Shown: piece by piece, positions 570 to 48,635 of the stretch
Layout of the letters: the number at the start of each line of letters is the position of its first letter
How positions within the stretch are numbered: position 1 is the stretch's first letter
Assembly (NCBI RefSeq): GCF_013391105.1
Contig: NZ_CP058335.1
Span: 682,001 to 746,000 of the forward strand
Direction of reading: 5' to 3'
Source: Natronomonas salina
GTDB lineage: Archaea > Halobacteriota > Halobacteria > Halobacteriales > Haloarculaceae
Length of the DNA stretch: 64,000 nucleotides
Translations under genes and position numbers: made by a program
The notes under the pieces: model-generated
Told to the model about the DNA's origin: nothing
The model's database searches: none
What the model saw: the letters and a program-made list of their open reading frames with translations, nothing else

Positions 570-592
570 ACGGACTAGTCAGACCACCAAGC

Positions 593-1333: not shown

Positions 1334-1354
1334 CTACTCCAAGGGTGACGAGGC

Positions 1355-1620: not shown

Positions 1621-1652
1621 CTCCAGTCCACTGGTTCAGCAACCTCAACTAG

Positions 1653-1997: not shown

Positions 1998-2169
1998 ACC
2001 AAGCCGGGGCATCCGTCACGCTACGTTGGGAAGTGCGGCGGAAGCAACTGTACAGATTACATCCGGATCGGTAGAGTCACGTGAATCTCGAGTGGCTGCG
2101 AAAGGCTATAGGAGAAATCACAGCCTGACGACAACCTTCCGAAAACTCGGCCGTCGTGACAATGACTCG

Positions 2170-2484
2170 CTACTCGAGGGAGATGACGCGGTCGACGCCG
2201 TCCGACGCGGCCGGCGCGGGGGTGACCGTGACCTCGCCGTTGCCGCGGACGTGAACCTCGCAGTCGGCCATCTCGAAACTCAGCTGGGTGATCGACGACC
2301 CGGCGCCGGTGTGGTCGAAGAGCTGGTCCAGTGCGTCGGGGTCGATGCTCTCGTACAGCGGGTCGAGATCGAGCGGAGAGACCTCTTTTGCATCTGCGAC
2401 TGCGGCGATGACCGTCTCACTGACGGTCTCGTCGCTGGAGGTCGTTCGTACCGTGTCGCCGAGTGTGCCCGTCATCGTATCCAT
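2170..2484 (-). CDS. HalOD1 output-domain protein
   Basis: A second HalOD1 protein, 104 residues. The conserved core is EVSPLDLDPLYESIDPDALD (about residues 34-53), then FEMADCEVHVRGNGEVTV. The Pro-Leu-x-Leu-x-Pro-Leu-Tyr motif is shared with the copy at 1052-1333, but the two are otherwise quite diverged, so they are not a recent duplication. A sensory or signalling role is inferred from the family. The gene lies tail-to-tail with the DUF7344-like gene. Confidence 0.8.
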   Translation of the reverse strand: MDTMTGTLGDTVRTTSSDETVSETVIAAVADAKEVSPLDLDPLYESIDPDALDQLFDHTGAGSSITQLSFEMADCEVHVRGNGEVTVTPAPAASDGVDRVISLE

Positions 2485-2745
2485 ACTATCAATGTATACC
2501 CTTGGGGGATAGGTGCTGTTTCAATACCCGTAGTATTCCGGCTCAAGTGGGCACTACATATGTAGTGTACGTCCCGGCCACCGAATCGCTGTCCTGGATC
2601 GATTCGAGAACTCGAGCAACGTATTCGCGTGCCCCGACAGCAATCAATTTCGTGGCTTCCCTGGTCTCAGGAGCGCTCGGGCCGATTCTGGAGAGACTAT
2701 CTCGTTCCGTCGAATCCTCCCAGTCCCAATCACCTCCGAAGGGCT

Positions 2746-3105
2746 ATGTTTTTACTTCGGGGGGGCGTCGTTCGTGGTGTGGCTGCACATAGCTCTCAGA
2801 GTGGAGGCGACGATAGTACCGACCTCCCCGAGGTCGTGCCGTTCGACCTCCCTCATCTCACACGGTTGAGCTGGGAACTGGGCTCTCGCGTCGTCGAAGA
2901 CGAGGAATCCACGCTCCAGAGCAGGTGGGAACACGACCGGCTGGCGTGGCTGCTATCGATCTTTCGTGTGACGGACAATACGGTCATCCTGTGCGTCCGA
3001 ACGCCGACGGGCAGGGAACGGTTCTACGGGGCCGCCCAATCGGACCTGAACATCGCCTTCCGAAAGCTCGCTGCAGCCCCGTCCTGGCGACCACGCAGCG
3101 AGTGA
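2746..3105 (+). CDS. Hypothetical protein
   Basis: A 119-residue frame from ATG 2746. A longer version from 2629 adds a Pro/Arg/Ser-rich extension that does not look coding, and a GTG at 2779 is also possible. The convincing part runs from about residue 25: LPEVVPFDLPHLTRLSWELG, followed by RLAWLLSIFRVTDNTVILCV and a short basic tail. There is no transmembrane segment and no metal or nucleotide motif. I do not recognise the family. Codon choice in the second half fits the neighbouring genes. Confidence 0.45.
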   Translation: MFLLRGGVVRGVAAHSSQSGGDDSTDLPEVVPFDLPHLTRLSWELGSRVVEDEESTLQSRWEHDRLAWLLSIFRVTDNTVILCVRTPTGRERFYGAAQSDLNIAFRKLAAAPSWRPRSE

Positions 3106-3279
3106 GTGCCGTGCCGGAGTGGCCAGACCAGTACCACATTCAGATATACTCTGGCCAGAGCTTTACACCGGTATGCGTCGTTCCCGATCTCGTACTCTCG
3201 TTCGGTAGGCGACCCGATCGTAAACCGTGTTTAAAGACGCCCCCCGAAGTATTATTTCAGCGGCGTTTGATCGGTAGCT

Positions 3280-4203
3280 ATGTCGACAGGCCCTCCAGCC
3301 GCCGTCGAGTTCGATAGCGTCACCAAACAGTACGACGGGGTGACAGCCCTCCGGAACCTCTCCCTCACCGTCCAGCAGGGCGAAATCTACGGGTTCCTCG
3401 GACCGAACGGCGCCGGAAAGTCGACGTCGATCGGCCTCGCCCTCGATTTCGTCCGTCCGACGAACGGCTCGGTTACGGTTCTCGGTCACGATGCCCAAGC
3501 GGCCAGCTTGCAGGTTCGCGAACGCGTCGGCTTCCTCTCGGACGACTTCGAGGTGTACGACCGGTTGACCGGCCGTCAACACGTCTCCTTCGCTATCGAG
3601 GCGAAGGGCGCCGACGATGACCCGGCAGCGCTCCTGGATCGCGTCGGCCTCGAGGAAGCGGCCGATCGAGCGGCTGGCGGCTACTCGAAGGGCATGAAAC
3701 AGCGACTCGGCCTCGCGACGGCGCTCGTCGGTGACGCCGACCTCCTCATCCTCGACGAGCCGTCGACCGGCCTGGACCCGAACGCGGCCCGGGAGATGCG
3801 CGAGATAATCCGCGCCGAGAACGAGCGGGGAGCCACCGTGTTCTTCTCGTCACACATCCTCGAACAGGTGGACGCCATCTGTGATCGCGTCGGTATCCTC
3901 CGGTCCGGCGAGCTCGTCGCGGAAGACACGGTCGACGGCCTCAGAGAGACCGTCGGCGGCGACTCCCAGCTACGGCTTACCGTCGACACGGTCCCCGACG
4001 GCTTGCTCGAGGCGGTACGGAACGTATCCGGCGTCTCCGACGTCAGCCTGGACGCCGGCGACGTCGTCGCGGTCTGCCGACCGGACGCCCGGCGAGACGT
4101 CATCGACGCCGTCGAATCGACCGGGGCGACCGTCGAACAGTTCGAGACGGAGGAGATCTCGCTGGAAGCGATGTTCGCCGCATACACGGAGGGTGGAGCA
4201 TGA
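3280..4203 (+). CDS. ABC transporter ATP-binding protein
   Basis: A 307-residue ATPase of the ABC-2 exporter class. Walker A GPNGAGKST is at about residues 41-49, the signature YSKGMKQR at about 135-142 and Walker B LLILDEP at about 155-161, followed by the H-loop SSHILEQV. The roughly 90-residue C-terminal extension is typical of ATPases paired with ABC-2 permeases. Its stop overlaps the permease start (ATGA), so the two are co-translated. The substrate is unknown. A TTTAAA box at 3230-3235 or an ATTATTT stretch at 3251 may be its promoter. Confidence 0.92.
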   Translation: MSTGPPAAVEFDSVTKQYDGVTALRNLSLTVQQGEIYGFLGPNGAGKSTSIGLALDFVRPTNGSVTVLGHDAQAASLQVRERVGFLSDDFEVYDRLTGRQHVSFAIEAKGADDDPAALLDRVGLEEAADRAAGGYSKGMKQRLGLATALVGDADLLILDEPSTGLDPNAAREMREIIRAENERGATVFFSSHILEQVDAICDRVGILRSGELVAEDTVDGLRETVGGDSQLRLTVDTVPDGLLEAVRNVSGVSDVSLDAGDVVAVCRPDARRDVIDAVESTGATVEQFETEEISLEAMFAAYTEGGA

Positions 4204-5018
4204 GCTGGTTCGTCGTCGGGAAGAAGGACTTCGCCGACGCCAGCCGTTCGCGGCTCCTGTGGGTGCTCACGGCGCTGTTCGTGCTCCTCGTTGGCGGGCT
4301 CGCCTACGCCTTCGCCGCGATTCTCAGCGGCGGCGGCGAGGCAGGGAGCCTCGGATTCATCGTGTTCCTGCAGAGCGTAGCGACCTTCTTCATCTCGATC
4401 GCCGCGCTCCTGGTCGCCTACAAAGCGATCGCGGGCGAACGGGAGACTGGAACCATCAGTTTCCTGCTCGGATTGCCGGTGACGCGCCGGGATGTCGTGT
4501 TCGGGAAGGTCGCTGGCCGTAGCCTCGTGCTCACACTCTCTCTGCTGGGCGGGTTCGGCGTCGCTGCCCTGATCTTAGTGGCGCTCGGCGGTGATTTCGA
4601 TCCCCTACAGTATCTACTGTTCACCCTGCTGTCCGTCTTCTACGGTGTGGCCTTCGTGAGCGTGGCTGTGACGCTCTCGTCGATTACGGCATCGTCTTCC
4701 CGCGCGGCCGCTGCAGCCATCGGGTTCTGGGTATTCGACCAGTTCTGGAGCACTGCCGTTCTCGTCGTGCTGGTGGTGGTGAACGGACTGTCGATGCCGC
4801 AGCCCCCGTTGCCGAACTGGTACCACGTCCTCGCCGGACTGGGTCCGAGCGCCGCGTACGGGAACGCCGCGGGGTACTTCCTCCCGCCCGAGTTCGCCGA
4901 ACAGGTCCAGGGCCAGTTCGGCGGACTCCCAGAGTGGTATGGCCTCGTCGTGTTGGCCGTCTGGTTGGTGGTGCCACTTGTACTCGGAATCGTCCGTTTC
5001 CAGCAACTCGACCTGTGA
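4200..5018 (+). CDS. ABC-2 type transporter permease
   Basis: A 272-residue membrane partner of the upstream ATPase, overlapping it by four bases (ATGA). About six hydrophobic segments are visible, the first at residues 22-44. The cytoplasmic loop IAGERETGTISFLLGLPVTR is the ABC-2 coupling region seen in haloarchaeal permeases of the NosY/copper ABC type. It probably exports a small molecule or acts in membrane processing; nothing shows the substrate. Confidence 0.88.
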   Translation: MSWFVVGKKDFADASRSRLLWVLTALFVLLVGGLAYAFAAILSGGGEAGSLGFIVFLQSVATFFISIAALLVAYKAIAGERETGTISFLLGLPVTRRDVVFGKVAGRSLVLTLSLLGGFGVAALILVALGGDFDPLQYLLFTLLSVFYGVAFVSVAVTLSSITASSSRAAAAAIGFWVFDQFWSTAVLVVLVVVNGLSMPQPPLPNWYHVLAGLGPSAAYGNAAGYFLPPEFAEQVQGQFGGLPEWYGLVVLAVWLVVPLVLGIVRFQQLDL

Positions 5019-5647
5019 CGGACTGCTGCCGCTCGCTCGGAGAATCGTGTCGGAAGTGTGGTAAGTAAATATTCGTTGACACGGCCGAAAACCGCACGAC
5101 AAGACGGGGAAAGGGCCGATGATCACCGAGGCGTTCATGCGCGACGTCGCCGCCAGCACCGCCGGCGAAGTCACGACGCCCGTTCCGCTTCCGGGTGCGT
5201 TCCCCGAGGCCGGGTACTACCCGACGAGCTAACCCGCTACGTCGGAGGTGCCGACGCCTACGCCATCACGCTCGAGAACTTCGTTCAGGTCGACGCCTAC
5301 ACGGCCTGATTCGGAGTGGTCTCGCAATACCCTCGGTGATCCAAGGTGCGGCCGGGAGTCGACGGTTATCTCGGCGCTGTCGAGGTGCACGTTTCCGGAC
5401 GATATTGAAACGGTTCTAGGTACTTTGACCGAGCAGTCATTGTCCACCGGTGAAAGATAGAATTGACGGCCAATCCCGGTTACCTGCCATAAATAACCAC
5501 AGGCCGTCATTCTGAAACCTCACACTGGTCAGTGTACCCGAGACCGACCGAATAGGTAATAGGGTGATTCCAGCGCAGCGAGACTGAATCAGCCGAACGA
5601 TCGAACCTGCGTAAAGCCCTTGTTTGTCAATACATTGAGTAGAACTA
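5019..5647. other. Long intergenic region with a probable gene remnant
   Basis: This 629-base stretch lies between the ABC permease and the histidine kinase. It contains one short, apparently frame-broken coding segment (5119-5309). The rest is moderately AT-rich with no RNA gene, repeat or convincing open frame. No strong TATA box directly before the kinase could be assigned. Confidence 0.45.
5119..5309 (+). pseudogene. Possible frameshifted gene remnant
   Basis: Frame one reads MITEAFMRDVAAS to a stop at about 5232. A second frame, offset and open to 5309, ends YAITLENFVQVDAYTA. Both pieces look like ordinary haloarchaeal protein and meet near 5225-5232, so a single indel in a formerly longer gene would explain them. 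I cannot identify the parent family. It could also be chance. Confidence 0.3.
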
Positions 5648-7219
5648 ATGACGGACCCGGAGACGCCGAGTGAACCCGCTCTTCAAAGTTCTCCAGAAGC
5701 GGTCTTGGAGCGGGTAACCGACGCTGTCTACGAGCTCGACGAAGACTGGCAGTTCACGTATTGCAACGACCAGGCTGAAACCCTGTTCCAGCGAGACCGA
5801 ACGGATATCCGTGGGGAATCTATCTGGGAGGAGTTTCCCAGATTGACCGACTCGCTGTTCCAGTGGGAACACGAGCAAGCGATGGAGACCCAGGAAGCTG
5901 TCACGTTCGAGACGCACTATCCGCCGCAGGACGGGTGGTTCGAGATCCGTGCCTATCCCTCTGAAACCGGACTTTCAGTGTACGTACGCGACATCACTGA
6001 CCCGGATGACCGTCAGCAGGAAGTCGAGAAACGGGAACAAGCGCTTCGACGTGCCAACGAGATAATGGCGGCCGCAGACCAGCCGTTCTCCCAACAGATA
6101 GATTCGCTCCTCGAAGTCGTCCGAACGACGGTCGGTACCAAGTTTGCGACGCTCTCACGGGTCAATGAAGATGCTGGTGAGTACATCTTCGAACACGTGG
6201 CCGCGCCGGAAACGGTCGACCTCGAAGCGGGTGACACGACACCGCTGGAGACCCTTCCCAACTGCTCACGCGTCGTCGAGACTGCGGAGACGCTCGTCCT
6301 GCAGGACGTGCAGTCCGAGGCACCGGAACTGGTCGACCCCGAGTGGGGGATCGCCTGTTATCTCGGGACACCGGTCATCGTCCATGGGGAGGTGTACGGG
6401 ACGTTCTGCTTCTACGGGAACGAGGCGCGGACCGAGGCGTTCTCCGATTGGGAAGTCTCGTTCGTCGGGTTACTCAGCAACTGGGTGAGCAACGAACTCG
6501 AGCACAGGGTGTACAAGCAGGAACTCGAGGAGTCCAACGAGCGCTTAGAGCAGTTCGCCTACGCCGCCAGCCACGACCTTCAGGAACCGCTCCGGATGGT
6601 GACGAGCTACCTCCAGCTGATCGAGCGGCGGTACACCGACGAACTCGACGACGAGGCCGAGGAGTTCATCGAGTTCGCCGTCGACGGCGCCGACCGGATG
6701 CGAGACATGATAGATGGATTACTCGAATATTCGCGGGTCGAGACGCGAGGTGATCCCTTGGAACCGGTCGAGTTGGACGCCGTTCTCGAAGACGCTCGTC
6801 AGGACCTCCAGTTACGCATCGAGGAGACGGATGCAGAGATAGTCACGGGGACCCTCCCTCGGGTCAGAGGCGATGGCGATCAACTCCGGGAGGTGTTCCA
6901 GAACCTGCTGGACAACGCCATCGAGTACAGCGGCGACGAGTCACCGCGTGTCTACGTCTCGGCCGAGCGAGCGGGCGATGAGTGGGTGCTCTCGGTTCGC
7001 GACGAGGGCGTCGGTATCGATCCTGCGGACGCCGACCGTGTCTTCGACGTGTTCGAGAGCCTCCATACGCAGGAGGAAGGCGGGGGGACGGGAATCGGAC
7101 TGGCGCTAAGTGAGCGAATCGTCGAACGCCACGGCGGCGATATCTGGGTCGAGCCCGACTCTCGCGATGGGACGACGTTCGCGTTTACACTGCCGGTAGC
7201 AGACGAGCCCGATAACTGA
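5648..7219 (+). CDS. PAS-GAF sensor histidine kinase
   Basis: A 523-residue soluble sensor kinase with no transmembrane segment. A PAS domain occupies about residues 14-118 and a GAF domain about 140-290 (YLGTPVIVHGEVYGTFCFYG is its conserved end). The HisKA box ASHDLQEPLRMV holds the phosphoacceptor His309. The HATPase_c domain follows, with N box NLLDNAIEYSG, G1 DEGVGIDP and G2 GGGTGIGLALSERIV. This is the common haloarchaeal orphan kinase architecture, sensing redox, light or small ligands in the cytoplasm. No response regulator lies beside it, so its partner is unknown. Confidence 0.9.
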   Translation: MTDPETPSEPALQSSPEAVLERVTDAVYELDEDWQFTYCNDQAETLFQRDRTDIRGESIWEEFPRLTDSLFQWEHEQAMETQEAVTFETHYPPQDGWFEIRAYPSETGLSVYVRDITDPDDRQQEVEKREQALRRANEIMAAADQPFSQQIDSLLEVVRTTVGTKFATLSRVNEDAGEYIFEHVAAPETVDLEAGDTTPLETLPNCSRVVETAETLVLQDVQSEAPELVDPEWGIACYLGTPVIVHGEVYGTFCFYGNEARTEAFSDWEVSFVGLLSNWVSNELEHRVYKQELEESNERLEQFAYAASHDLQEPLRMVTSYLQLIERRYTDELDDEAEEFIEFAVDGADRMRDMIDGLLEYSRVETRGDPLEPVELDAVLEDARQDLQLRIEETDAEIVTGTLPRVRGDGDQLREVFQNLLDNAIEYSGDESPRVYVSAERAGDEWVLSVRDEGVGIDPADADRVFDVFESLHTQEEGGGTGIGLALSERIVERHGGDIWVEPDSRDGTTFAFTLPVADEPDN

Positions 7220-7364
7220 ACGCCCTGAATCGACCGATTCAGAAATGGGACGGTTCAAGCGCGACGAGACTGAAACAGCCGCCAGAACGTGTCCGCTCAG
7301 CATGCTCGAAAGGTCGGTAGGGTTCTCCTGCTACGTCGAACCGAGTGAAGGGCCTGTGTCAGCG

Positions 7365-7841
7365 CTACTCGTCGCCGTAATGGCTCCGCTTCTTGAACAT
7401 GAACTTCATATCGCCCTCGAAGACGCTCTCTCCGTCCTGGTTCGTCGTTAGCGCATCGATGACGACGAGACCAGCGTCCTCACGGGATTCGAGATCGCGC
7501 TTCTCCGCCACTTCGAACTCCGCGGAGATGGTGTCGTCGACGTACACCGGGTTCTGGAGGTCCATGTAGTTCATCCCGAGAAACGCGATAACGCGGCGTT
7601 CGACGAACCCGCAGCGGTGGACGAACCCGGTCGTGAGCACGAACGTCAACGGACCGTGACCGATACGCGCGCCGTACGGGCCGTCCTCGGAGTACTCGTC
7701 GTTCGTGTGAATCTCTTCCCAGTCACCCGACACCGAAGAGTACATCTCCAGGGTCGCGCTCGTCACAGTCCGCCCGGCGCTCTCGAACGTCTGTCCCTCC
7801 TCCAACTCCTCGAAGTAGTGCGGTTCGTAGGTGATCGACAT
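7365..7841 (-). CDS. MaoC-like enoyl-CoA hydratase
   Basis: A 158-residue single hot-dog domain. The hydratase motif SGDWEEIHTN (about residues 38-47), with catalytic Asp40 and His45, is followed by the GPYGARIGHGPLTFV substrate-tunnel segment. The family hydrates trans-2-enoyl-CoA thioesters or an oxepin/ring-derived CoA ester. Its ATG overlaps the paaK stop (TAATG), so it is co-translated with phenylacetate-CoA ligase, which suggests a step in aromatic-acid breakdown. The longer frame running through it is only a shadow of paaK; the start chosen is MSITYEPHYF. Confidence 0.87.
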   Translation of the reverse strand: MSITYEPHYFEELEEGQTFESAGRTVTSATLEMYSSVSGDWEEIHTNDEYSEDGPYGARIGHGPLTFVLTTGFVHRCGFVERRVIAFLGMNYMDLQNPVYVDDTISAEFEVAEKRDLESREDAGLVVIDALTTNQDGESVFEGDMKFMFKKRSHYGDE

Positions 7842-9121
7842 TATCGGTGGTCGTACACTCGCTGGACTTTGCCGGTTGCCTGTCGCTCGATGCCTGCGGG
7901 CGAAGCGATCTTCACATCGTCGGGCGAGACGTCGAGGGTCGAATCGAGTGTCTCCCGGACCCGCCGTTCTACCGCCTCGGCGTCCGCGTTCTCCCGGCGT
8001 TCGATGGTGAGTTCGAGCGTGTCCAGCTGGCCCTCTCGACGGATGTCGATGCGGTACTGTGGAGCGACGCCTTCCAGGTCGAGGACGACGGACTCTATCT
8101 GGCTGGGATACACGTTGATGCCACGGACGACCAGCAGGTCGTCGGTGCGGCCCCGGACGTTCTCCATGCGGGCGTGGGTCCGTCCACAGTCGCAGGGCTC
8201 GCGGGTCAGCGACGTGATATCGCCGGTGCGGTATCGCAAGACGGGCAGCGCGTCTTTCGAGAGTGTCGTCAATACGAGTTCGCCCCGCTCGCCGTCGTCT
8301 ACGGGCTCGCCCGTCTCGGGATCGACCACCTCGGGGAGGAAGCGATCCTCCCAGATGTGGAGTCCGTCCTGCGCGGCAGCACACTCCATGGCGATGCCGG
8401 GGCCGATTATCTCCGAGAGACCGTAGATATCGACGGCGGTGACCCCGAGTTCGTGCTCTATCTCCTCGCGCATCGGTTCTGTGAACGGTTCCGCCCCGAT
8501 GATGACCGTCTCCAGCGGCAGTTCCCGGACGTCGACGCCCTGCTCGCGGGCCGTCTCCGCGAGGTACAGCGCGTACGAGGGCGTGCAGGTGAGCGCGTCG
8601 GACTCGAGGTCCTGCATGAACTCTATCTGCCGGTCCGTGTCGCCTCCGCCGATGGGGATGATGCCCGCGCCGAGTTCTTCTGTTCCGGTCTGTACGCCCA
8701 GGCCGCCGGTGAACAGGCCGTAGCCGTAGGCATTCTGCACGATGTCGTCCGGCGTGACGCCGGCCGCCACGAGCGAGCGGGCCATCACCTCTCGCCACAC
8801 CTGCATGTCCTTGTCGGTGTAAGCGACGATCTTCGACTTGCCCGTGGTGCCGGAGGAGGCGTGGATGCGCTCGATGTCCGAGTGGTCGACGGCGAACAGG
8901 CCGTCGGGGTACTCCTCGCGGAAGTCCTCCTTCGTCGTGAAGGGCAACTCGCGGATGTCGTCGAGTGAGTCGATGTCGTCCGGCGCGACGTCAGCCTCCT
9001 CGAGTCGTTCGCGGTAGAACGGGACGTTCTCGTATGCGTTGCGGACCGTCTCGCGGAGGCGATCGGTCTGCAGCCCCCGGAGATCGTCCCGGGAGACAGC
9101 CTCCACGTCTTGATATGGCAT
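7841..9121 (-). CDS. paaK: Phenylacetate-CoA ligase PaaK
   Basis: A 426-residue adenylate-forming ligase that activates phenylacetate to phenylacetyl-CoA with ATP and CoA. The P-loop ASSGTTGKSKIVAYT is at about residues 88-102, the PaaK-type core GLSEIIGPGIAMEC follows, and the C-terminal domain ends with the lysine motif RQATGKVQRV. Length and motifs match the PaaK family, not the longer fatty-acyl ligases. It supplies the substrate of the PaaABC epoxidase encoded 280 bases upstream on the same strand. A strong TATA box precedes it, so it has its own promoter. Confidence 0.93.
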   Translation of the reverse strand: MPYQDVEAVSRDDLRGLQTDRLRETVRNAYENVPFYRERLEEADVAPDDIDSLDDIRELPFTTKEDFREEYPDGLFAVDHSDIERIHASSGTTGKSKIVAYTDKDMQVWREVMARSLVAAGVTPDDIVQNAYGYGLFTGGLGVQTGTEELGAGIIPIGGGDTDRQIEFMQDLESDALTCTPSYALYLAETAREQGVDVRELPLETVIIGAEPFTEPMREEIEHELGVTAVDIYGLSEIIGPGIAMECAAAQDGLHIWEDRFLPEVVDPETGEPVDDGERGELVLTTLSKDALPVLRYRTGDITSLTREPCDCGRTHARMENVRGRTDDLLVVRGINVYPSQIESVVLDLEGVAPQYRIDIRREGQLDTLELTIERRENADAEAVERRVRETLDSTLDVSPDDVKIASPAGIERQATGKVQRVYDHR

Positions 9122-9173
9122 ATCACGAATATAGGGGGATGCTTGTAAAGAGATTCACCCGTCCACTTGTCGG

Positions 9174-9182
9174 TTTTATAAG
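9174..9182 (-). promoter_or_regulatory. TATA box of paaK
   Basis: The minus strand reads CTTATAAAA, ending 53 bases before the paaK ATG at 9121. The transcription start would be near 9150, leaving a leader of about 25-30 bases. The spacer from here to paaD-Zn (9183-9402) has no gene. Confidence 0.5.
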
Positions 9183-9402
9183 GTCGCGATAGCTGCCCTC
9201 CTCCAGCTCCGAAACGAGACTCCCTCTTCGGTCGAACTGTCGTGTATTGCAATCCAGGGAATCCCGGCTAGCCAGGTGCTGCCGAAGCGGGCGTGTCGCT
9301 GGCGCTACAGACAGGGAGCAGAACTATCAGAAGTTCGGCAGCGTCCGTATGGCCGTAGTTACGCGATCTTCGAAAGGTGGATTCAGCGACTGGTCTATCC
9401 GG

Positions 9403-9570
9403 CTATCCCATCGCCTCGAACGGCTCGTCGCAGTCGTTGCAGTAGTGGATAGAGCGGCAGAGGGACGGCCCCTTCGGATGGTCTCGATCGGTGTTCGTCC
9501 CGTCGCAGTACGGACACGCCGCCGGGGTGTCCGCTTCGGTGTCCGTGGAGGGGTCGGGCTGCCGTCTCAT
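9403..9570 (-). CDS. PaaD zinc-ribbon protein (detached C-terminal domain)
   Basis: A 55-residue protein with Cys19, Cys22, Cys38, Cys44 and Cys47; CPYC and CNDC are the paired knuckles of a zinc ribbon. The end LCRSIHYCNDCDEPFEA closely resembles the Cys-rich C-terminus of bacterial PaaD, where it is fused to the MIP18-like domain. Here it is a separate gene that overlaps the upstream paaD by four bases (ATGA). It probably acts with PaaD in maturation of the PaaA diiron centre. The start MRRQPDPS was chosen for that overlap; a 76-residue version is less likely. Confidence 0.85.
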   Translation of the reverse strand: MRRQPDPSTDTEADTPAACPYCDGTNTDRDHPKGPSLCRSIHYCNDCDEPFEAMG

Positions 9571-9989
9571 ATGCTCACCCCGAAGTCGCGGAGCGACTCC
9601 TTGCCCGCCTCCGTCACGAGGTTGAGGTTCCACTCCGGCGACCAGACGAGTTCCACCTCGGCCGAGTCTACTCCCGCGGCGCGCTCGGCAGCCTCGACGA
9701 CGTCGTCCTGCAACATCGAGCGGGCCGGACAGCCCGTGTAGGTGAGGGTCATCGTCACCTTCGCCTGTCCATCCTCTACCGAGACGCCGTAGATGAGCCC
9801 GAGGTCGACGACGGAGACGGGCATCTCGGGGTCCTCGACCTCGTACAGTTCCTCCCAGACGCGCGGCTCGATGCCCGTCGCGTTCTCCCCGGTCGCGGGG
9901 AGCTCCTCCGGGTCGACGCCGTGGTCGTACTCGGTGTACCCGCAGTACTCCGGGCCGAACTCGTCGGCGTCGTCGGGGGCTTCAGACAT
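9567..9989 (-). CDS. paaD: Phenylacetyl-CoA epoxidase protein PaaD (MIP18 domain)
   Basis: A 140-residue protein dominated by a MIP18/DUF59 domain. The motifs DPEMPVSVVDLGLIYGV and TYTGCPARSML, with the conserved Cys, identify the PaaD/SufT group involved in iron or iron-sulfur cofactor assembly. A roughly 40-residue acidic, Tyr-rich N-terminal extension precedes it. The zinc-ribbon tail of bacterial PaaD is absent here and is encoded by the next overlapping gene. It overlaps paaC upstream by eight bases, within the paaABCD operon. Confidence 0.9.
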   Translation of the reverse strand: MSEAPDDADEFGPEYCGYTEYDHGVDPEELPATGENATGIEPRVWEELYEVEDPEMPVSVVDLGLIYGVSVEDGQAKVTMTLTYTGCPARSMLQDDVVEAAERAAGVDSAEVELVWSPEWNLNLVTEAGKESLRDFGVSI

Positions 9990-10803
9990 CGGCCTCGTCG
10001 GGGTCCGCCATCAGTTTCGCCGGCTCGCGGCCGAGCATCTCGTAGGTGTACGTGAACTCGTCGTAGAGCCCCTGCCAGTCGTCGGTGTGGGACCCGTCGC
10101 GACCACGCACGTCCGGGAGCTCCGGGTCCGGCACCGTCATGCCGAGCCCCTCGAGGAACGGCGTCGTGATAGCGAGCCAGTCCTCGCGGAGTTCCGACAG
10201 CGGCGCCGTGCGGACGCCGAGGTCGACGATGTCGTCCTCGTGTTCGGTCGGCGCGAACATCGTCTGGGCGTGCGGGTAGAGGCGGTCGAGCGCCGACTGG
10301 AGGCGCTGGATGGCCTCGCTGGAGGCGTCCTTCCCCTCGGTCAGCCGCTCCAGCCAGTTACTCGTGTGGTCGCGGTGGTAGTGCTCCTCGCCGAGGACCT
10401 TCCCGACACGGTCCGCGATGCGCGGGTAGCTGGTGTCCTCGAGGGCCTCGAGTCGCAGGCGCTCGAAGTGGTCGTACAGGTAGCCACGGAGCACGCAGTC
10501 GGCCCAGTCTCCCGTCTCGAAGGCGAGTTCGGCCATCGTCGTGTGCCGGAAGTCGGACGGATCACGCTCCCAGATGAGATCGGGTTCCTCGTAGCCGAAG
10601 TCCTCGAGCAGGTCGTACCAGAGCCGCGCGTGGCCGTACTCGTCCTGCGCGATGTTGGCTACGGCGAGGTCCGCCTCCAGCGTGGGGCCCCGCACCTGCC
10701 AGTCGATGTAGCGTTCGGCCATCACGAACTCGTCGTCGGCGAGACACTGGAGTTCGGCCTCGACGGCTGCGCGTTCGCGGTTGGATAGGTCGTCGGGGTT
10801 CAT
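9982..10803 (-). CDS. paaC: Phenylacetyl-CoA epoxidase subunit PaaC
   Basis: A 273-residue ferritin-like helical protein, the structural partner of PaaA in the ring 1,2-epoxidase. The segments NIAQDEYGHARLWYDLLEDF and VLGEEHYHRDHTSNW recall diiron four-helix bundles; bacterial PaaC keeps the fold but is not the catalytic subunit. The start MNPDDLSNRE lies one base beyond the paaB stop; a start four codons upstream would overlap paaB. Its stop overlaps paaD. Confidence 0.93.
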   Translation of the reverse strand: MNPDDLSNRERAAVEAELQCLADDEFVMAERYIDWQVRGPTLEADLAVANIAQDEYGHARLWYDLLEDFGYEEPDLIWERDPSDFRHTTMAELAFETGDWADCVLRGYLYDHFERLRLEALEDTSYPRIADRVGKVLGEEHYHRDHTSNWLERLTEGKDASSEAIQRLQSALDRLYPHAQTMFAPTEHEDDIVDLGVRTAPLSELREDWLAITTPFLEGLGMTVPDPELPDVRGRDGSHTDDWQGLYDEFTYTYEMLGREPAKLMADPDEADV

Positions 10804-10804
10804 C

Positions 10805-11137
10805 TCAGTTCTCACCCGCGGCTTTCTTGCGGTTGTCTTCGGCCTCCTTCTGTTCGGCCTCGCTCTCCTCGATCTCCTCGGCCATCTCGCCGGTCGAGTA
10901 GTTCGTCGCCCAGCGGTACTCCTTCTGTGTGAGCCCGCCCATCGCCACGTCGTGCTCGTCGGCGTCGACGGTCTCGATCTCCTCCTTGGGAACGACCCAC
11001 AGCGAGTTCGCGGGCTTCCGGCGCGCGTGCATGATCTGGGCGTACTGTGTCGCCAGTTCGGCGTTCGGCGCGTGGACGTCGCCGACGTGGCTGTGGTAGT
11101 CCTTCGGCTTCTCTTGGCGGAATACTTCCCAGCGCAT
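10805..11137 (-). CDS. paaB: Phenylacetyl-CoA epoxidase subunit PaaB
   Basis: A 110-residue small subunit that bridges PaaAC units in the bacterial complex. It begins MRWEVFRQEKPKDYHSHVGD, the signature start of PaaB (WEVF.Q...G..H.H.G), and contains ARRKPANSLWVVP. The last 25 residues are a highly charged tail. Two bases separate it from paaA, so it is translated in the same operon. The upstream extension of the open frame is a shadow of paaA. Confidence 0.93.
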   Translation of the reverse strand: MRWEVFRQEKPKDYHSHVGDVHAPNAELATQYAQIMHARRKPANSLWVVPKEEIETVDADEHDVAMGGLTQKEYRWATNYSTGEMAEEIEESEAEQKEAEDNRKKAAGEN

Positions 11138-11139
11138 GG

Positions 11140-12081
11140 TCAGTCGGCCGCGGCGCTTGTCGCGCCTGCGGCGGGGGAGTCGTCCGTAATCGCTTCGCGC
11201 ACCCACTCGACGGCCGCCTGGCGGCGCTCGCGTTTGTGTATCTGCTCGGCGCCAGGGGGGTACTCGTTCTGTGACACCGCGCCGAACTCCTCCCAGTCGA
11301 GGTCCGACTCCTCGACGTGGTAGCGCTCCTCGTACTCGTCGTACTCGATACGGGGGGTCTCCGGGATCTCGAGGCCGTACTTCTCGGCCTTCGACAGATA
11401 GGCGTTCAGGAACGCCGTCCGCAGGTCGTCGTTGCTCATCGTCTTCAGGCCCACGTCCATCGCGAACCCGCCGTGGACCGACTGGTCGTTCGTGGGGCCG
11501 AAGAACTGCAGGATGCGCGGCCACCACTTGTCGAACGCCTCCTGGAGGAGTTGTTGGTCGCGCCTGCTCCCCGTCGCGATCTCACCGAGGATGCTCTCGC
11601 CGTGTTTGATGTGGAAGCCCTCCTCGAAGCAGATCTTGTCGATGGCGTGGGCGTACGGCTCCCACGACGTCCGCTTGAGCGTCGCCTGCCGGCGCATCGC
11701 CGCACCGTCGACGAAGAACATGATCATCGGCAGCTCGTACCAGTTCTGGATGGGGTAGTGGAAGCAATTGAGGAACTTCCCCTCCCCGTTCTCGAGTTCG
11801 GCCAGCATCTCCTCGCGCGTCTTCACGCCGAGGTTCTCAGCTGCACGGTACAGCAGTTGGCCGTGGCCGATCTCGTCCTGGACCTGCGCGCTCACGGCAA
11901 GTTTCCGGTCCAGACTCGGTGCCTGGCGGATGAACGGACGCTCGATGTACGCGCCCATGATCTCGGAGTTCGCGTGGAACTGGATCATCCGGGTCGCCGC
12001 CTCGCGGTACTCCTCGGGCATGTCGTCGCCAGGCCCGAACTCTCGCGGTCCGGCCCGTGACTTGACCTGTTCTAGGTCCAT
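11140..12081 (-). CDS. paaA: Phenylacetyl-CoA epoxidase catalytic subunit PaaA
   Basis: A 313-residue diiron oxygenase subunit that inserts one oxygen atom into the aromatic ring of phenylacetyl-CoA to give the 1,2-epoxide. Iron ligands are visible in DEIGH (about residues 69-73) and EEGFH (about 153-157), with an upstream Glu in the first helix. The sequence FHIKHGESILGEIATG is characteristic of PaaA. It is the first gene of the paaABCD operon. ATG 12081 is preferred over 12102 because it gives the usual family length. A TTTAAA box 54-59 bases upstream is shared with the divergent regulator. Confidence 0.95.
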   Translation of the reverse strand: MDLEQVKSRAGPREFGPGDDMPEEYREAATRMIQFHANSEIMGAYIERPFIRQAPSLDRKLAVSAQVQDEIGHGQLLYRAAENLGVKTREEMLAELENGEGKFLNCFHYPIQNWYELPMIMFFVDGAAMRRQATLKRTSWEPYAHAIDKICFEEGFHIKHGESILGEIATGSRRDQQLLQEAFDKWWPRILQFFGPTNDQSVHGGFAMDVGLKTMSNDDLRTAFLNAYLSKAEKYGLEIPETPRIEYDEYEERYHVEESDLDWEEFGAVSQNEYPPGAEQIHKRERRQAAVEWVREAITDDSPAAGATSAAAD

Positions 12082-12134
12082 ACTCCCCGCTTTCGACGCC
12101 ACGAACGTAGCAACTCACCCGCACATAGCGCGGG

Positions 12135-12166
12135 TTTAAATGATGCTGTCGCCAATTGTGCATCAT
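12135..12166. promoter_or_regulatory. Shared paa promoter with inverted repeat
   Basis: TTTAAA at 12135-12140 is self-complementary, so it can serve both the divergent regulator (30 bases before its ATG at 12165, leaderless) and paaA (54 bases before its ATG). A perfect 7-bp inverted repeat, ATGATGC (12140-12146) and GCATCAT (12160-12166), begins at the last base of this box and ends within the regulator start codon. It is a good candidate operator for autoregulation. Confidence 0.5.
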
Positions 12167-12800
12167 GATCGCCGAGTGTCTCGTCGTCGAGTTCCGGGTG
12201 ACCGGCGACGAGTGCCCCCTCGCGGACGCATCGCGGGAAACGGGCGCGGCCATCGACGCACGCCCGCCGCTTCGACGCGCGGACGGGAATACGCTGCTCC
12301 AGTTCAGCACCGAGGATCCGGCGGTCGGCGAGGTACTCGACGCCGACGAGCGTGTCCGACCGCTCCACCAGTCGCGCGCGAACGGGCGGTACAACTACCG
12401 CTGTCTCTCCAAGCACCGATGCATCGTCAACGACCTCGTCGACGTCGGCTTTCTCGTGGACTCGACCCACTACGACGCCGGGACCGAGCGGTACGTGGGC
12501 GCAGTCGTCGGCCGCGACGTGCTCAAAGGGGTACTGGAGGCCGCGGGCGAGACGTTCGGCGTCAAACTCGAGCGCATCTCTCCGCTGGACGACAGCGACG
12601 ACGAGCCCGTGGCGAAGCGGTGGGACGTGACACCCGCACAGGAGGCGGCGGTGCGAGCCGCCATCGAGAGCGGCTACTTCGAGGTGCCCCGAGCAGCGAC
12701 GGCGGGTGAGGTAGCGGCGGAGCTCGACATCTCGAAGTCGGCGTTCCTCGAACGACTGCGCCGGGCAGAGGAGTCGCTACTCAGACAGATCGTCGGGTGA
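12165..12800 (+). CDS. Bat-type (HTH_10) transcriptional regulator
   Basis: A 211-residue member of the bacterio-opsin-activator family. The N-terminal 150 residues form the variable Bat-associated sensor half. The C-terminal WDVTPAQEAAVRAAIESGYF ... AATAGEVAAELDISKSAFLE ... RRAEESLLRQIV is the HTH_10 DNA-binding domain (about residues 150-210). It is divergent from paaA and shares its promoter region, so it probably controls phenylacetate catabolism and itself. ATG 12165 was chosen because it coincides with the predicted transcription start; 12156 is also open. Confidence 0.88.
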   Translation: MIAECLVVEFRVTGDECPLADASRETGAAIDARPPLRRADGNTLLQFSTEDPAVGEVLDADERVRPLHQSRANGRYNYRCLSKHRCIVNDLVDVGFLVDSTHYDAGTERYVGAVVGRDVLKGVLEAAGETFGVKLERISPLDDSDDEPVAKRWDVTPAQEAAVRAAIESGYFEVPRAATAGEVAAELDISKSAFLERLRRAEESLLRQIVG

Positions 12801-12803
12801 CGA

Positions 12804-13676
12804 CTACAGCCCGAGGAACTGTTCGGCGTTCTCCCAGAGCAACTTTCGCTGAACGGACTCGTCGAAGCCGAGGTCGGCGAACTGTTCCAGCCACGGCCCC
12901 GGCTCGATCATCGGATAGTCGGTCCCGAACATCACCTTGTCCTGGAGGACCGTCCGGGCGTAGTGGAGTACCTGGTCGTCGATGTAATCGGGCATCCACC
13001 CCGAGAGGTCCATGTAGACGTTCCCCTTCTGCTGGCAGACCGCGAGCTTTTCCTTCTCCCACGGGAACGCCGGGTGCGCGAGCAAAATCTCCATCTCGGG
13101 GTGTTCTGCGGCCACGTCGTCGACGAGCATCGGGTCGCCGTGCTTGACCTTCAGTCCGCGACCACCCGGCGCACCGGCGCCGAGCGTGGAGTTGCCGCCG
13201 TGGAACACCACCGGGACGTCGAGGTCCTCGATCGTGTTCCAGAGGTGGTCGTGGCGGTCGGCGGACGGGTCGAATCCCTGGGCTATCTGCTGGAACTTGA
13301 ACCCCGAGAGGTCGAGGTCCTCCACACAGCGGATCGCCTCCTGCACGCAGTCGTCTTTTAGAGGGTCCACACTCCCGAATGCGACGAAGAAGTCGTCGTG
13401 CTCGTCGCGGACCTCGGCGACGTAGTCGTTGGGCACGGGTGGGTTCCCGGTATTGGTCTCGGCGTCCCAGCCGAGTAGAATCGCCCGCCCGACGCCGGCT
13501 TCACGGTACTCGGCGATCATCTCGTCGTACGTCGCTGTTTCCATCTCGGCGCCGAACTTCTCCGCGGCGTCTTGCATCATCTGCCCGCCGGCATCCTCCA
13601 GGAACTCCTTCGTCGGCTGGTGAGCGTGGGTGTCGATGGCGCGTGGCCCGTCTTCGGCGGCGAGTACGTCTATCAC
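12804..13676 (-). CDS. Amidohydrolase family protein (TIM-barrel metal hydrolase)
   Basis: A 290-residue amidohydrolase-2/ACMSD-type protein. The metal motif IDTHAHQPTKEF lies near the N-terminus, followed by VVFHGGN, ILLAHPAFPW and the final metal Asp in MFGTDYPMIEPG. The family includes decarboxylases and lactone hydrolases acting on aromatic breakdown products, which would suit its place beside the paa genes, but the substrate is unknown. The GTG at 13676 was chosen because a TTTTTG box lies about 27 bases upstream; the longer frame starts with TTG. It converges on the regulator gene with three bases between. Confidence 0.85.
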   Translation of the reverse strand: MIDVLAAEDGPRAIDTHAHQPTKEFLEDAGGQMMQDAAEKFGAEMETATYDEMIAEYREAGVGRAILLGWDAETNTGNPPVPNDYVAEVRDEHDDFFVAFGSVDPLKDDCVQEAIRCVEDLDLSGFKFQQIAQGFDPSADRHDHLWNTIEDLDVPVVFHGGNSTLGAGAPGGRGLKVKHGDPMLVDDVAAEHPEMEILLAHPAFPWEKEKLAVCQQKGNVYMDLSGWMPDYIDDQVLHYARTVLQDKVMFGTDYPMIEPGPWLEQFADLGFDESVQRKLLWENAEQFLGL

Positions 13677-13780
13677 GGTACACCATAGCACCCCTGGTGG
13701 CAAAAACTGCGGCGGTTCCGGTACCGTCGATGGTTTCGGGGTCGGGCTACTGAATCAGTTGATAGACTGAGTCGGCTTAG

Positions 13781-14203
13781 TCACCGATTTATCGCCCATC
13801 GTAGCGCAACTCCCACCCCGAACGCGAGTGTACCGAGGAGAACAGCAGTCGGCACCCAAAATCCTGCCACCCCAACTCCGACTAACGAGAGGGGTAATGC
13901 AACCGGGACTGTCTCCCCAGAGGCGATGAGGGCCTCTGTATATAGTATCGGAGCAGACACTGGGGCGAAGACCAGTACCCAACTGATGAGCAACCCGCTG
14001 TTCCGATACGCGGATACACTCGCCAGAGCGACACCGGCTACGATGAGGAGATAGAGGCCGCCGATAGTATCGGGTACGGAGAACAGCTCGTGGCTACTGA
14101 TGAGGGTGAGGGAGAGGACAAACAGCCCGAGAGCGCCGAGTACGCTCTTCTTCGCGAGGTCGGGGTCGACTCCGACGAGATGATTCCGCTTACTGTTCGT
14201 CAT
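13781..14203 (-). CDS. Four-TM membrane protein, unknown
   Basis: About 140 residues starting MTNSKRNHLVGV. Four hydrophobic segments are visible, at about residues 19-35, 45-60, 67-85 and 96-135, the last long enough for two passes. There are no recognisable motifs. It is the last of three tandem small membrane-protein genes on this strand and overlaps the preceding one (14190-14402). Codon use is AT-richer than in the flanking metabolic genes. Confidence 0.6.
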   Translation of the reverse strand: MTNSKRNHLVGVDPDLAKKSVLGALGLFVLSLTLISSHELFSVPDTIGGLYLLIVAGVALASVSAYRNSGLLISWVLVFAPVSAPILYTEALIASGETVPVALPLSLVGVGVAGFWVPTAVLLGTLAFGVGVALRWAINR

Positions 14204-14402
14204 CCAATTCCCTCTGTAACTCTCGTACCTCCTGTTCCAGCTCCTCGATGCGTTCATCGCTATCACGTCCAGTGTAGAGATCAAGGACGCCGACGATGAA
14301 GGCGATGAACAGTCCGACGAAACCCCCGATCGGGCCGCCCAGCACGAAACCGAAAATACCGGCTGCACCCGGTAGAACACCGAGGGCGACGAAGTCATTC
14401 AT
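14190..14402 (-). CDS. Small glycine-zipper-like membrane protein with coiled coil
   Basis: A 70-residue protein. A single Gly-rich hydrophobic region, GVLPGAAGIFGFVLGGPIGG and onward to about residue 45, is followed by a charged heptad-like tail, IEELEQEVRELQRELDDEQ, which should form a coiled coil in the cytoplasm. The arrangement resembles small oligomeric membrane anchors. It overlaps the next gene by 14 bases, implying a shared transcript. The function is unknown. Confidence 0.6.
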   Translation of the reverse strand: MNDFVALGVLPGAAGIFGFVLGGPIGGFVGLFIAFIVGVLDLYTGRDSDERIEELEQEVRELQRELDDEQ

Positions 14403-14523
14403 ATCTTTCCTGCAGTCTGTCGACAAATAAACGTTGAGGACGTGGATTCCCGCACGTCGTAGAGTCCATCTATTGACCGACAGCTGACTACCTTTGCCGG
14501 ATGAACTACGGATTCGGGAACGG

Positions 14524-14910
14524 TCAGAGTTCGTCACCCTGTGAGGTGAGGTATTGACGTATGTCGTGACCGAGGAAGCCAGAGAGAAACGCGGTCGCGT
14601 ATGCCAGTGCAAAGATGAACGGAACGTCTAAACTCTCATCGTGACCACGCCACCCGAATCCGAACACAAGTATAACGAACGTAGCCGCAAAGGCAAGGAT
14701 TCCAAACAGACCCGTATTGAGCCGGATGTATCTTGCTGCGAGAAACGACAGAATAGCGATTGGAATCAGCAATATCAGTACTTCAAACGGCGGTTCGATG
14801 GACTGCACCCATGATGCAGGCAGCAGCCAGATGAGGCTATTCAACACCAGTACGGCACCAACAACGAATCCCGTAGCGATGACCCACCCCCGATGATCCT
14901 TCGTATCCAT
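14524..14910 (-). CDS. Small membrane protein, unknown
   Basis: A 128-residue protein with four hydrophobic segments (about residues 9-29, 42-58, 66-84 and 95-112) and a polar C-terminus ending GHDIRQYLTSQGDEL. It is first of a trio of small membrane-protein genes on the minus strand and separated from the second by about 120 bases. No family is recognised. Confidence 0.6.
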   Translation of the reverse strand: MDTKDHRGWVIATGFVVGAVLVLNSLIWLLPASWVQSIEPPFEVLILLIPIAILSFLAARYIRLNTGLFGILAFAATFVILVFGFGWRGHDESLDVPFIFALAYATAFLSGFLGHDIRQYLTSQGDEL

Positions 14911-15107
14911 CTATAGCCGATAAATATTCGACCCGATACGTGGTAAAATTTCCCTCCATTCGGTATGCGGCTCGTCCTGCGAGGGACACACCCGCTGTGA
15001 TTGGACGGTGAGAAGCGAATCCGTACTCGATGAATCTTGTCTGATTCTCGATATTTCTACACGTGTAAATACAATTGTTATGTCGACCGGGCTGGAATGG
15101 GTGCGTG

Positions 15108-46110: not shown

Positions 46111-46335
46111 TCACTCTTGGTCGGTATGGTCGAACTCGGGGCTGGCTCGGTCGAACAGCGGCCGGGCCAGCAGCATCGATCCGACGACGATGACGATGAA
46201 AGCGACGCCGGTCATCCCGATCGGCAGCCCCAGGAGGTAGAGCCCGAGCGTCGTCGCCAGCGCGACGGAGACGACGCCCAGAATCACGAGGTGGACGGCG
46301 CCGAACGCAACGGTCGAGTTCGCGTCGCCGAACAT
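46111..46335 (-). CDS. Small two-TM membrane protein
   Basis: A 74-residue protein. Two hydrophobic segments (about residues 10-34 and 37-56) are joined by a short Gly-Leu-Pro turn, with a charged tail RPLFDRASPEFDHTDQE. An AGGAGG ribosome-binding sequence lies six bases before the ATG, unusual in this largely leaderless region. No family is recognised. Confidence 0.65.
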   Translation of the reverse strand: MFGDANSTVAFGAVHLVILGVVSVALATTLGLYLLGLPIGMTGVAFIVIVVGSMLLARPLFDRASPEFDHTDQE

Positions 46336-46454: not shown

Positions 46455-47591
46455 TTATCGCTGGTTCCCCTGCTGGCCGCGGTCGAGGTCCTTCCGCTCC
46501 CAGGGCTGGTCCTCCTGGCTCCGCTGCTGGCTATGACCCTGCCGCCGCTGTTGCTGGTGCTGCTGATTCTGCTGATTCTGCTGGCCTTGCTGCTGTTGAC
46601 CGGAGCGCTGTCCCTGTCGGCCCTGCTGGCCGCCACGACCGCCTCGCTGGCCCTGCTGCTGTCGCTGGCCGCTCTGCCGGCGCTGCTGTTGCTGGACCTG
46701 GCCGTGCGGCTGGTTCTGCTGGTTGCCCTGGTGACGACCGCTGTCCTGGACGGGTTCGCCGTGGGCGCCCGGATGGCCGCCCTGCTGGCGGTACTGGTCG
46801 TTCTGCTGGCCCTGCTGGCCCTGCTGGGACCGCTGCCCCTGCTGGTACTGCTGGCTCTGCGGGCCCTGCTGCGGCTGCTGGGCGCGCTGTTGCTGACGCT
46901 GCTGTCCGCCCTGCTGGCGCTGTTGGGTCTGCTGGGACTGCTGGTAGTTCTGCTGCTGGTTCTGGCCCGTCTGCTGATACTGGTTCTGCTGACGGCGGCC
47001 CTGCTGGGACCGCTGCCCTTGCTGGTACTGCTGGCCGCCCTGCTGTCGCTGCTGTTGCCGTCGGTCGCTCTGCTGCTGGCTGCCGTACTGCTGGTTCTGG
47101 GTCCCGCCCTGCTGCGGTTGGGCCCCCTGCTGAGACTGCTGGTGGCCGCCGCCCTGGTGCTGGTGGGGCATGTTCTGGCGGGTGCCGCCGGGCTGGCCGG
47201 TCTGTCCGCCAGCGCGGCTCTGCCGCTGCTGGCCGCCCATCCGGCTGTCGTACGTCCCGCCCTGCTGGGCTTCCTGGGGCTGGCCCTGGTGCATGTGGCC
47301 GCCGTGCTGCTGGTTCTGGGTCCCGCCCTGCTGCCGCTGGCCGCCCTGCTGGGACTGCTGGCCGCCGCCCTGCTGGACGCGCTGCTGTTGCTCCTCTCGG
47401 ATCTGGTTCTTCTGGTGGCGGCGCTGGTCCTGCTGGTCGCGCTTGTTCCCCTGCTGGGTCTGCCAGTCCTCTTTCTGAGCGCTGCGGGCCGGCTGCGGAT
47501 TGGCGTCCGTCTGGGACGGACCCTGTCGGCGCTGTCGTTCCTCTTCCTGGGCCTCGCCGCTCCGGTTGCTGGGTCTGTTGTGTTCGGACAT
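46455..47591 (-). CDS. Gln-rich, prion-like low-complexity protein
   Basis: A 378-residue protein with about 149 glutamines (39%), many glycines and arginines, seven tyrosines, no cysteine, no hydrophobic stretch and few acidic residues, so it is basic in a proteome that is overwhelmingly acidic. Only the first 50 residues (MSEHNRPSNRSGEAQEEERQ and on) are of mixed composition. Short blocks recur: GGTQNQQ-HGG and -YGS, and QQYQQGQRSQQG twice. It should be intrinsically disordered. Gln is encoded almost only by CAG. The opposite strand is also open as a Leu repeat, but that has no start context. It is divergent from hisF. Function unknown. Confidence 0.7.
   Translation of the reverse strand: MSEHNRPSNRSGEAQEEERQRRQGPSQTDANPQPARSAQKEDWQTQQGNKRDQQDQRRHQKNQIREEQQQRVQQGGGQQSQQGGQRQQGGTQNQQHGGHMHQGQPQEAQQGGTYDSRMGGQQRQSRAGGQTGQPGGTRQNMPHQHQGGGHQQSQQGAQPQQGGTQNQQYGSQQQSDRRQQQRQQGGQQYQQGQRSQQGRRQQNQYQQTGQNQQQNYQQSQQTQQRQQGGQQRQQQRAQQPQQGPQSQQYQQGQRSQQGQQGQQNDQYRQQGGHPGAHGEPVQDSGRHQGNQQNQPHGQVQQQQRRQSGQRQQQGQRGGRGGQQGRQGQRSGQQQQGQQNQQNQQHQQQRRQGHSQQRSQEDQPWERKDLDRGQQGNQR
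46817..47034. repeat. Direct repeats within the Gln-rich gene (block A)
   Basis: A 38-base block is repeated at 46817-46854 and 46997-47034 (offset 180 bases, in frame) with one mismatch. Each copy contains CTGCTGGGACCGCTGCCC on the plus strand. It encodes the QQYQQGQRSQQG unit. The surrounding sequence is a looser CTG/CTGG repeat. Confidence 0.65.
47082..47333. repeat. Direct repeats within the Gln-rich gene (block B)
   Basis: A 33-base block at 47082-47114 recurs at 47301-47333 (offset 219 bases, in frame) with one mismatch. Each carries CTGGTTCTGGGTCCCGCCC. It encodes the QQGGTQNQQ unit. Together with block A this points to growth of the gene by internal duplication. Confidence 0.65.
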
Positions 47592-47819
47592 GGGTGGATG
47601 TTGTAAGGGTCGCCACTCGGTTCGCGCCGCTCCGCGCTCGTTCTACACCGGAAAATCGGGCCGTGAGACCGGTGTGGGTTGTGCCTGCGTTTGCAACGGG
47701 CTACGACCGGCCGGGGCGACCGGAACCGACCGGTGGACCCAGCGGGATTTCACGGGCGTCCGATTCGTTCGGGACTCCGAAACGGTCAAACCCGGACGCG
47801 GCCAACCGTCGGGTAGTAG

Positions 47820-48635
47820 ATGGCTCTCACCAAGCGGATCATCCCCTGCATCGACGTGGCCCTCGACGACGCGGGGAACGCGTCGGTGTACACCGGCGTG
47901 AACTTCGAGGACCTCCAGTACACGGGCGACCCCGTCGAACTGGCGCGCAAGTACAACGAGTCGGGCGCCGACGAGTTCGTCTTCCTCGACATCACGGCGT
48001 CGGCGGAGGGCCGCGAGACGATGCTGGACACCGTCTCGGCGGTCGCCGACGAGGTGTTCATCCCGATGACCGTCGGCGGCGGCATCCGGACCCGCGAGGA
48101 CATCAAGGAGACGCTCCGGGCGGGCGCCGACAAGGTCTCGATCAACACGGGTGCCCTGGAGCGACCCGAACTCATCGGCGAGGGGGCCCGCGCCTTCGGC
48201 AGCCAGTGCATCGTCATCTCCGTGGACGCCAAGCGTCGCTTCGACGAGGCCGGCGAGCACTACGCCCAGGTCGACGGCGAGTCCTGCTGGTTCGAGTGCA
48301 CCGTCAAGGGCGGCCGCGAGGGCACCGGCGTCGACGTCGTCGAGTGGGCCCGCGAGGCCGCTGAGCGCGGCGCCGGCGAGCTGTTCGTCAACTCCATCGA
48401 CGCCGACGGCACGAAGGAGGGCTACGACATCCCGCTGACGAAGGCCGTCTGCGACGAGGTCCCGACGCCCGTCATCGCCTCCTCGGGGGCCGGCGGCCCC
48501 GGGCACATGCACGAGGTCTTCCGGGACGCCGGCGCCGACGCGGCGCTGGCGGCCTCCATATTCCACTTCGAGGAGTACACCATCCGCGAGGTCAAGGAGT
48601 ACCTCGACGAGCGCGACGTCCCCATCCGGCTGTAG
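47820..48635 (+). CDS. hisF: Imidazole glycerol phosphate synthase subunit HisF
   Basis: A 271-residue TIM-barrel cyclase of histidine synthesis, converting PRFAR plus ammonia to imidazole glycerol phosphate and [21 protein letters not shown] has the first catalytic Asp, [11 protein letters not shown] is the first phosphate-binding loop, and [15 protein letters not shown] the second. The product AICAR feeds purine synthesis. It works with HisH, which is not in this window. It lies next to rpo11 on the opposite strand with one gene between. Confidence 0.95.

Follow-up and report, generated by a model that had tools for sequence, protein, structure and literature searches.

Haloarchaeal proteomes are thought to require acidic surfaces for solubility in molar salt. 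What, then, is encoded by a haloarchaeal reading frame whose predicted product is strongly basic and nearly two-fifths glutamine, and is this frame a gene at all? The frame occupies positions 46455-47591 on the minus strand of the window, the 64,000-nucleotide stretch of DNA that was analysed (G000:C1:682001-746000, where G000 is the source genome, one contig of 3.75 Mb), and its Q/G/R-rich product is referred to here as P0001.

Results

Composition and predicted structure of P0001

The P0001 open reading frame (ORF) begins with ATG, ends with TAA and comprises 378 codons. A recount of its residues agrees with the initial annotation of this DNA, which had described a Gly/Arg-rich, Cys-free minus-strand frame of this length with about 149 Gln (39%): the low-complexity protein contains 149 Gln (39.4%), 60 Gly (15.9%), 41 Arg, 20 Ser, 17 Asn and 14 His, its minor residues include 12 Glu and 11 Asp (23 acidic residues), 7 Tyr and 4 Lys but no Cys, and hydrophobic residues are scarce (just 1 Leu, 1 Ile and 3 Val). 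The same annotation had seen a basic, acid-poor outlier for a haloarchaeon, a view borne out by the computed pI of 11.5, the net charge of about +22 and the GRAVY value of -2.49. Because each flanking protein compared has an excess of 13 to 60 acidic over basic residues, P0001 is a strong charge outlier. Its nitrogen load is 1.85 N atoms per residue, as compared to 1.21-1.38 in nearby proteins. A pure CAG microsatellite is ruled out, as the longest glutamine run is only 4 residues, tandem arrays are short and weak, and the two copies of an internal repeat, QYQQGQRSQQG, differ by one synonymous CAG/CAA change.

Prion-like proteins are reportedly recognized by the Michelitsch-Weissman cut-off of at least 30 Q+N in 80 residues. 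P0001 exceeds this value with a peak of 50 per 80 residues, starting from residue 187, and the earlier description of its composition as prion-like therefore stands on a simple Q+N count. The accompanying argument from RGG-like patches is thin, as P0001 contains just 2 RGG and 3 RG in 378 aa and lacks the clustered RGG/RG of an RGG box.

P0001 is disordered-looking by several predictions. Its FoldIndex is -0.59, and an AlphaFold model built from the single sequence with no alignment has a mean pLDDT of 55.9 and a pTM of 0.23. The model contains two possible long helices (residues 36-75 and 171-236, pLDDT up to 88), which we treat as no more than possible coiled-coil segments because helix is frequently over-called in Q-rich sequence. 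A search of Pfam and NCBIfam profiles with P0001 gave no match, and no folded domain is apparent. Neither the N-terminus (MSEHNRPSNRSGEAQ), read by eye, nor the composition reveals an apparent signal peptide, Tat motif, lipobox or transmembrane segment, so P0001 is probably cytosolic.

Genomic context and an upstream element shared with a second gene

P0001 is separated by a gap of 228 bp from the divergent hisF gene (47820..48635, plus strand; TIGR00735 above cut-off). Downstream lies a small hydrophobic ORF of 73 aa (46117..46335, minus strand), whose translation, judged by eye, probably contains two transmembrane helices and for which a tblastn comparison with the relatives' hisF loci found nothing; genes that we take from their sequences to be korA-korB are located on the same side. 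These surroundings, hisF and a small membrane-protein ORF, hold no stress-gene cluster. Elsewhere in the window, positions 1-15000 have a G+C content of about 54-67%, as compared to 65-72% in most of the remaining window, and this segment is possibly integrated or foreign.

A second Q/G/R-rich ORF, L066, is located at 3.63 Mb on the same contig, 2.9 Mb from P0001, and encodes 323 aa with 33% Gln, 21% Gly and 14% Arg. The DNA upstream of the two genes shares an element of about 100 bp (47617..47716, minus strand), in which 80 of 106 aligned columns (75%) are identical; the Smith-Waterman score of 68 compares with a mean of 18.8 (sd 2.6, maximum 35) for 2000 shuffles and with 31 for the best of other window pieces. 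The most conserved block of the element, CGTTGCAAACGCAGGCACAACCCACACCG (47670..47698, minus strand), has only two sites in the genome when up to 3 mismatches are allowed, and at the same tolerance the upstream block CGTTGCAnACGCAGGCAnAACCCACnCCG matches exactly twice, before P0001 and before L066. A promoter-proximal block, CGCGAACCGA..CCYTACRA (47601..47626, minus strand), lies 10 to 35 bases 5' of the ATG, and the pattern CGCGAACCGA-n(5-22)-CCYTACRA also occurs exactly twice in the genome, upstream of the same two genes. No third copy of the element was found in the source genome. The genes divergent from P0001 and L066 differ (hisF versus a biotin-ligase-type gene), indicating that the element goes with the Q-rich genes; it is presumably regulatory. 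A structured RNA leader is unlikely, since the folding z-scores are low (1.2 and -0.2) and Rfam gave no match. When the element was used as a DNA query against 392 genomes, only short GC-rich noise was returned, the query being too insensitive to retrieve even L066.

The coding regions of P0001 and L066 can no longer be aligned (Z 2.6). Homology of the protein termini is not significant against controls; the C-terminus gives a p of about 0.02 and does not stand out above other class members (see below). The third Q/G/R-rich ORF of the genome, L064 (G000:C1:1792500-1801000, 3663-5027, minus strand; 37% Gln), is not preceded by the upstream element despite its similar composition. Near its C-terminus L064 carries the motif GLQYGGEARH..VG..Q.FG, which is also present in L118 from another genus.

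A patchy compositional class in haloarchaea

No ortholog of P0001 could be detected among 19 congeners or in 146 genomes of the family. Searches with phmmer, using the whole protein against 60 relatives and the N-terminal 80 aa against the 146 family genomes, returned P0001 itself and noise, and tblastn-style scans covering both genome contigs and plasmids returned nothing, probably as a result of low-complexity masking. The gene is present at the hisF locus in none of the 15 congeners examined, and Q-pattern clusters are absent from all 19 other genomes of the genus; given this absence, P0001 appears dispensable in the genus.

Proteins of similar composition were detected solely by codon-pattern scans, protein searches having returned nothing, and low-complexity masking probably hides them from routine searches. 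The pattern CARCARVRNCARCARVRNCAR has matches in 193 of 392 haloarchaeal genomes, mostly 1-3 each and about 25 in the richest, with single matches that include ordinary proteins; a looser pattern also finds a prefoldin-alpha-like C-terminus. The latter belongs to a small coiled-coil protein with a conserved C-terminal QQQQMQQMQ (G000:C1:1458578 and congeners; read in L034, L036 and L053), which is apparently present in most of the genus and forms a background in Q-pattern scans. Based on clustered matches, at least 13 genera of haloarchaea, belonging to five families (f1, f6, f7, f13 and f17), possess stand-alone Q-rich ORFs. We define the class by composition, as stand-alone ORFs that contain at least 25% Gln, are Gly-/Arg-rich and Cys-free, and have no folded domain.

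P0001 has this composition, as do other stand-alone haloarchaeal proteins (L066, L064, L073/L075, L084/L085/L089, L103-L106, L110, L114 and L133) that contain 25-42% Gln and 15-30% Gly, have a pI of about 9-12, and are Cys-free, Lys-poor and devoid of Pfam domains. Two orthologous groups can be recognised within the class. In f17, the Q/G/R genes have hisC on one side and NADH dehydrogenase or F420-type genes on the other, and show a conserved promoter-like region, TACACNTAAGGA..GGGG (a G-rich stretch), 5' of the ATG, while the group in f1 carries the repeat GGxHSAQxQQRDxxGQFTG. Some class members contain this repeat or GLTQEARRRGGKHSAQ, whereas P0001 has neither, and its likeness to the other members does not go past composition (the best Z, 5.5, is to L129, which scores highly with many proteins). 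P0001 is thus a member of a patchy, fast-evolving haloarchaeal class defined by composition, its rapid turnover being indicated by the missing Q-rich clusters in the 19 other genomes of the genus and the missing gene at the 15 hisF loci.

No Pfam or NCBIfam model covers the class, and the ten members scanned gave no Pfam match. The class is apparently undescribed: no published account was found in the open-access subset of the literature, so novelty is not proven. The initial annotation had known of no archaeal protein of this type, a claim of uniqueness that gives way to the comparable proteins in at least 13 genera, two more of them in the same genome, and to archaeal prion-like domains already published in a survey (PMC3654983) and by Zajkowski et al. 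2021, as cited in PMC9676014.

Coding evidence for the glutamine frame

A Leu-rich plus-strand ORF of 357 aa overlaps the P0001 region, and the initial annotation had allowed that this frame might be the conserved one. Frames were compared by the mean log-odds of synonymous codon choice, in nats per codon, with ten window genes as the reference. The Q frame scores +0.379, within the 0.36-0.67 spanned by real window genes, as compared to +0.171 for the plus-strand Leu frame, and when Gln and Leu codons are removed the two values become +0.329 and -0.132, respectively. Codon choice thus favors the Q frame. One plus-strand frame also scores well, but it is interrupted by 11 stops.

Selection was estimated from dN/dS in five pairs of class members. 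In L073/L075, a close ortholog pair from outside the genus, dN is 0.096 and dS is 0.452, giving a dN/dS of 0.21, a value that an antisense frame with common third positions would approach by construction; in P0001 that frame has stops. Differences in this pair are distributed 18/20/51 over the three codon positions, and purifying selection acts on the Q frame. The pair L105/L106 has a dN of 0.289 and a dS of 0.682. The initial annotation had tied the reality of the gene to a conserved frame: this holds for class members elsewhere, where the Q frame is selected, but conservation of P0001 itself was looked for and not found. On three independent grounds, its codon choice, the upstream element common to L066 and the selection on the Q frame in class members elsewhere, P0001 is very probably a genuine gene.

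Gene neighbours and glutamine-rich tails

In unrelated genomes, Q/G/R-rich genes adjoin his genes: hisF in the case of P0001, hisD in L103/L104, and hisC in the f17 group and in L109/L172. Given about ten his genes among roughly 3,700 (our own estimate) and three such cases in about sixteen independent loci, the probability of chance adjacency is of order 1e-4 before allowing for a category chosen post hoc, and we regard the association as a lead, not a result. Stand-alone Q-rich genes also adjoin a CBS gene (L107, G034:C12:48000-58000) and ORFs that, from their sequences, we take to be four-Cys Csp1-like (L108) and PRC-barrel-like (L190). In places, genes that are presumably HalOD1-like and DUF5789-like, named from sequence with no model, cluster with Q-tailed or stand-alone Q-rich genes.

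Q-rich tails are found in other genomes on Hsp20 (L033), CBS proteins (L107 and L147), a ferritin-like Dps-type protein (L107), four-Cys Csp1-like proteins (L101 and L113, with TIGR04401 below cut-off for L113) and small helical phasin-like proteins. In the source genome, L063 (G000:C1:829000-836000, about 3000-3990, minus strand) has a phasin-like start, MNPNQQNPNQQQ...EQMAEQGIHQG, and an apparent Q/P-rich tail, QQPQQQQYQQ, in a different frame; as its relative L102 is a single frame, this points either to a frameshift or to a mistake in the G000 assembly.

Discussion

Of known systems, the archaeal and yeast prion-like Q/N-rich domains (PMC3654983; Zajkowski et al. 2021, as cited in PMC9676014) resemble P0001 in their predicted disorder and in a Q/N density far over the usual cut-off. 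P0001 differs from them in that it is enriched in Q and not N, is strongly Arg/Gly-rich and basic, and has this composition throughout the whole protein rather than in a domain on a folded protein. We tentatively propose, with confidence a little short of even, that P0001 is a cytosolic, disordered, Q/G/R-rich self-associating or shielding stress protein of the patchy haloarchaeal class. In the mechanism that we infer, P0001 would be expressed under conditions set by the upstream element common to L066, and its solubility in molar KCl would derive from amide and glycine polarity, not acidic charge. Many weak contacts formed by its Gln, Arg, Tyr and His residues, both with itself and with other macromolecules, may then enable it to act as a condensate-like scaffold or shield in times of stress.

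A rather unlikely but plausible alternative is that P0001 is a hydrophilin-like protectant, GsiB/LEA-like in action though not homologous, which serves as a disordered molecular shield or water replacement in drying or salt shock and works without condensates. Hydrophilins are defined by a Gly content above 6% and a hydrophilicity index above 1. The composition of P0001 agrees with this definition (Gly 15.9%, GRAVY -2.49), its patchy distribution is accessory-like, and with hydrophilins, GsiB-type KGG proteins and LEA proteins it shares a Gly-rich, extremely hydrophilic and presumably disordered chain. However, P0001 has Gln/Arg in place of Lys/Glu and no detected KGG or LEA repeat; Pfam gave no hit to KGG, LEA or any other family, either with P0001 and ten class members (E up to 1) or with terminal and motif segments taken in isolation (E up to 10), and the high Gln/Arg content with many Q-Q contacts suggests self-association.

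We consider it unlikely that P0001 binds nucleic acids as an RGG/QGR protein, coating or condensing RNA or DNA. Its net charge of +22 and 41 Arg would suit such a role, as would the 8 RGG and 16 RG of the class member L133, and its Gln, Gly, Arg and some Tyr recall eukaryotic RGG/FET-type low-complexity regions. Compared with those regions, however, P0001 has few RGG (2, with 3 RG), little Tyr and Ser, and no RRM or other folded RNA-binding domain, and molar KCl weakens electrostatic binding.

It is highly unlikely that P0001 is a drifting low-complexity gene of little or no function, derived from CAG slippage of a once-useful ORF: the P0001 and L066 coding regions have diverged past alignment while their upstream DNA still aligns, and congeners have no P0001 ortholog, as drift would allow, but the 378-codon frame is intact, its codon choice is host-like, and class members elsewhere are under purifying selection. 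Fainter still is the prospect of a nitrogen store, an amide-/Arg-rich reserve similar in role to seed prolamins or cyanophycin. The nitrogen load of 1.85 N per residue against 1.21-1.38 nearby would fit, as would the location of class members beside hisF, hisD and hisC, histidine synthesis being nitrogen-demanding; however, this case draws on composition and a post hoc neighbour count, and no granule, synthetase or protease partner was seen. Almost no credence can be given to non-coding CTG-repeat DNA with the true gene on the plus strand or absent, since, although such repeats are open in most frames and a 357-aa Leu-rich plus-strand ORF is present, codon choice rejects the Leu frame, the element common to L066 leads into the minus-strand ATG, and selection acts on the Q frame in relatives of the class.

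Returning to the proposed stress protein, the Q-rich tails that other haloarchaea carry on Hsp20, ferritin-like/Dps-type, Csp1-like and CBS proteins would be expected if such segments serve in co-assembly. A Q-rich scaffold-client system in haloarchaea, in which P0001-like proteins form stress-induced condensates in molar salt that recruit Hsp20, ferritin-like (Dps-type), Csp1-like and CBS proteins with Q-rich tails, is a decidedly unlikely extension of this idea; if true, it would constitute an assembly code written in low-complexity sequence that does not depend on the rule of the acidic proteome. The recurrent basic, acid-poor Gln/Gly/Arg-rich class, in the cytoplasm of organisms with acidic proteomes, would offer a natural test of low-complexity behaviour at 3-4 M KCl, and would bear on whether prion-like scaffolds arose in archaea.
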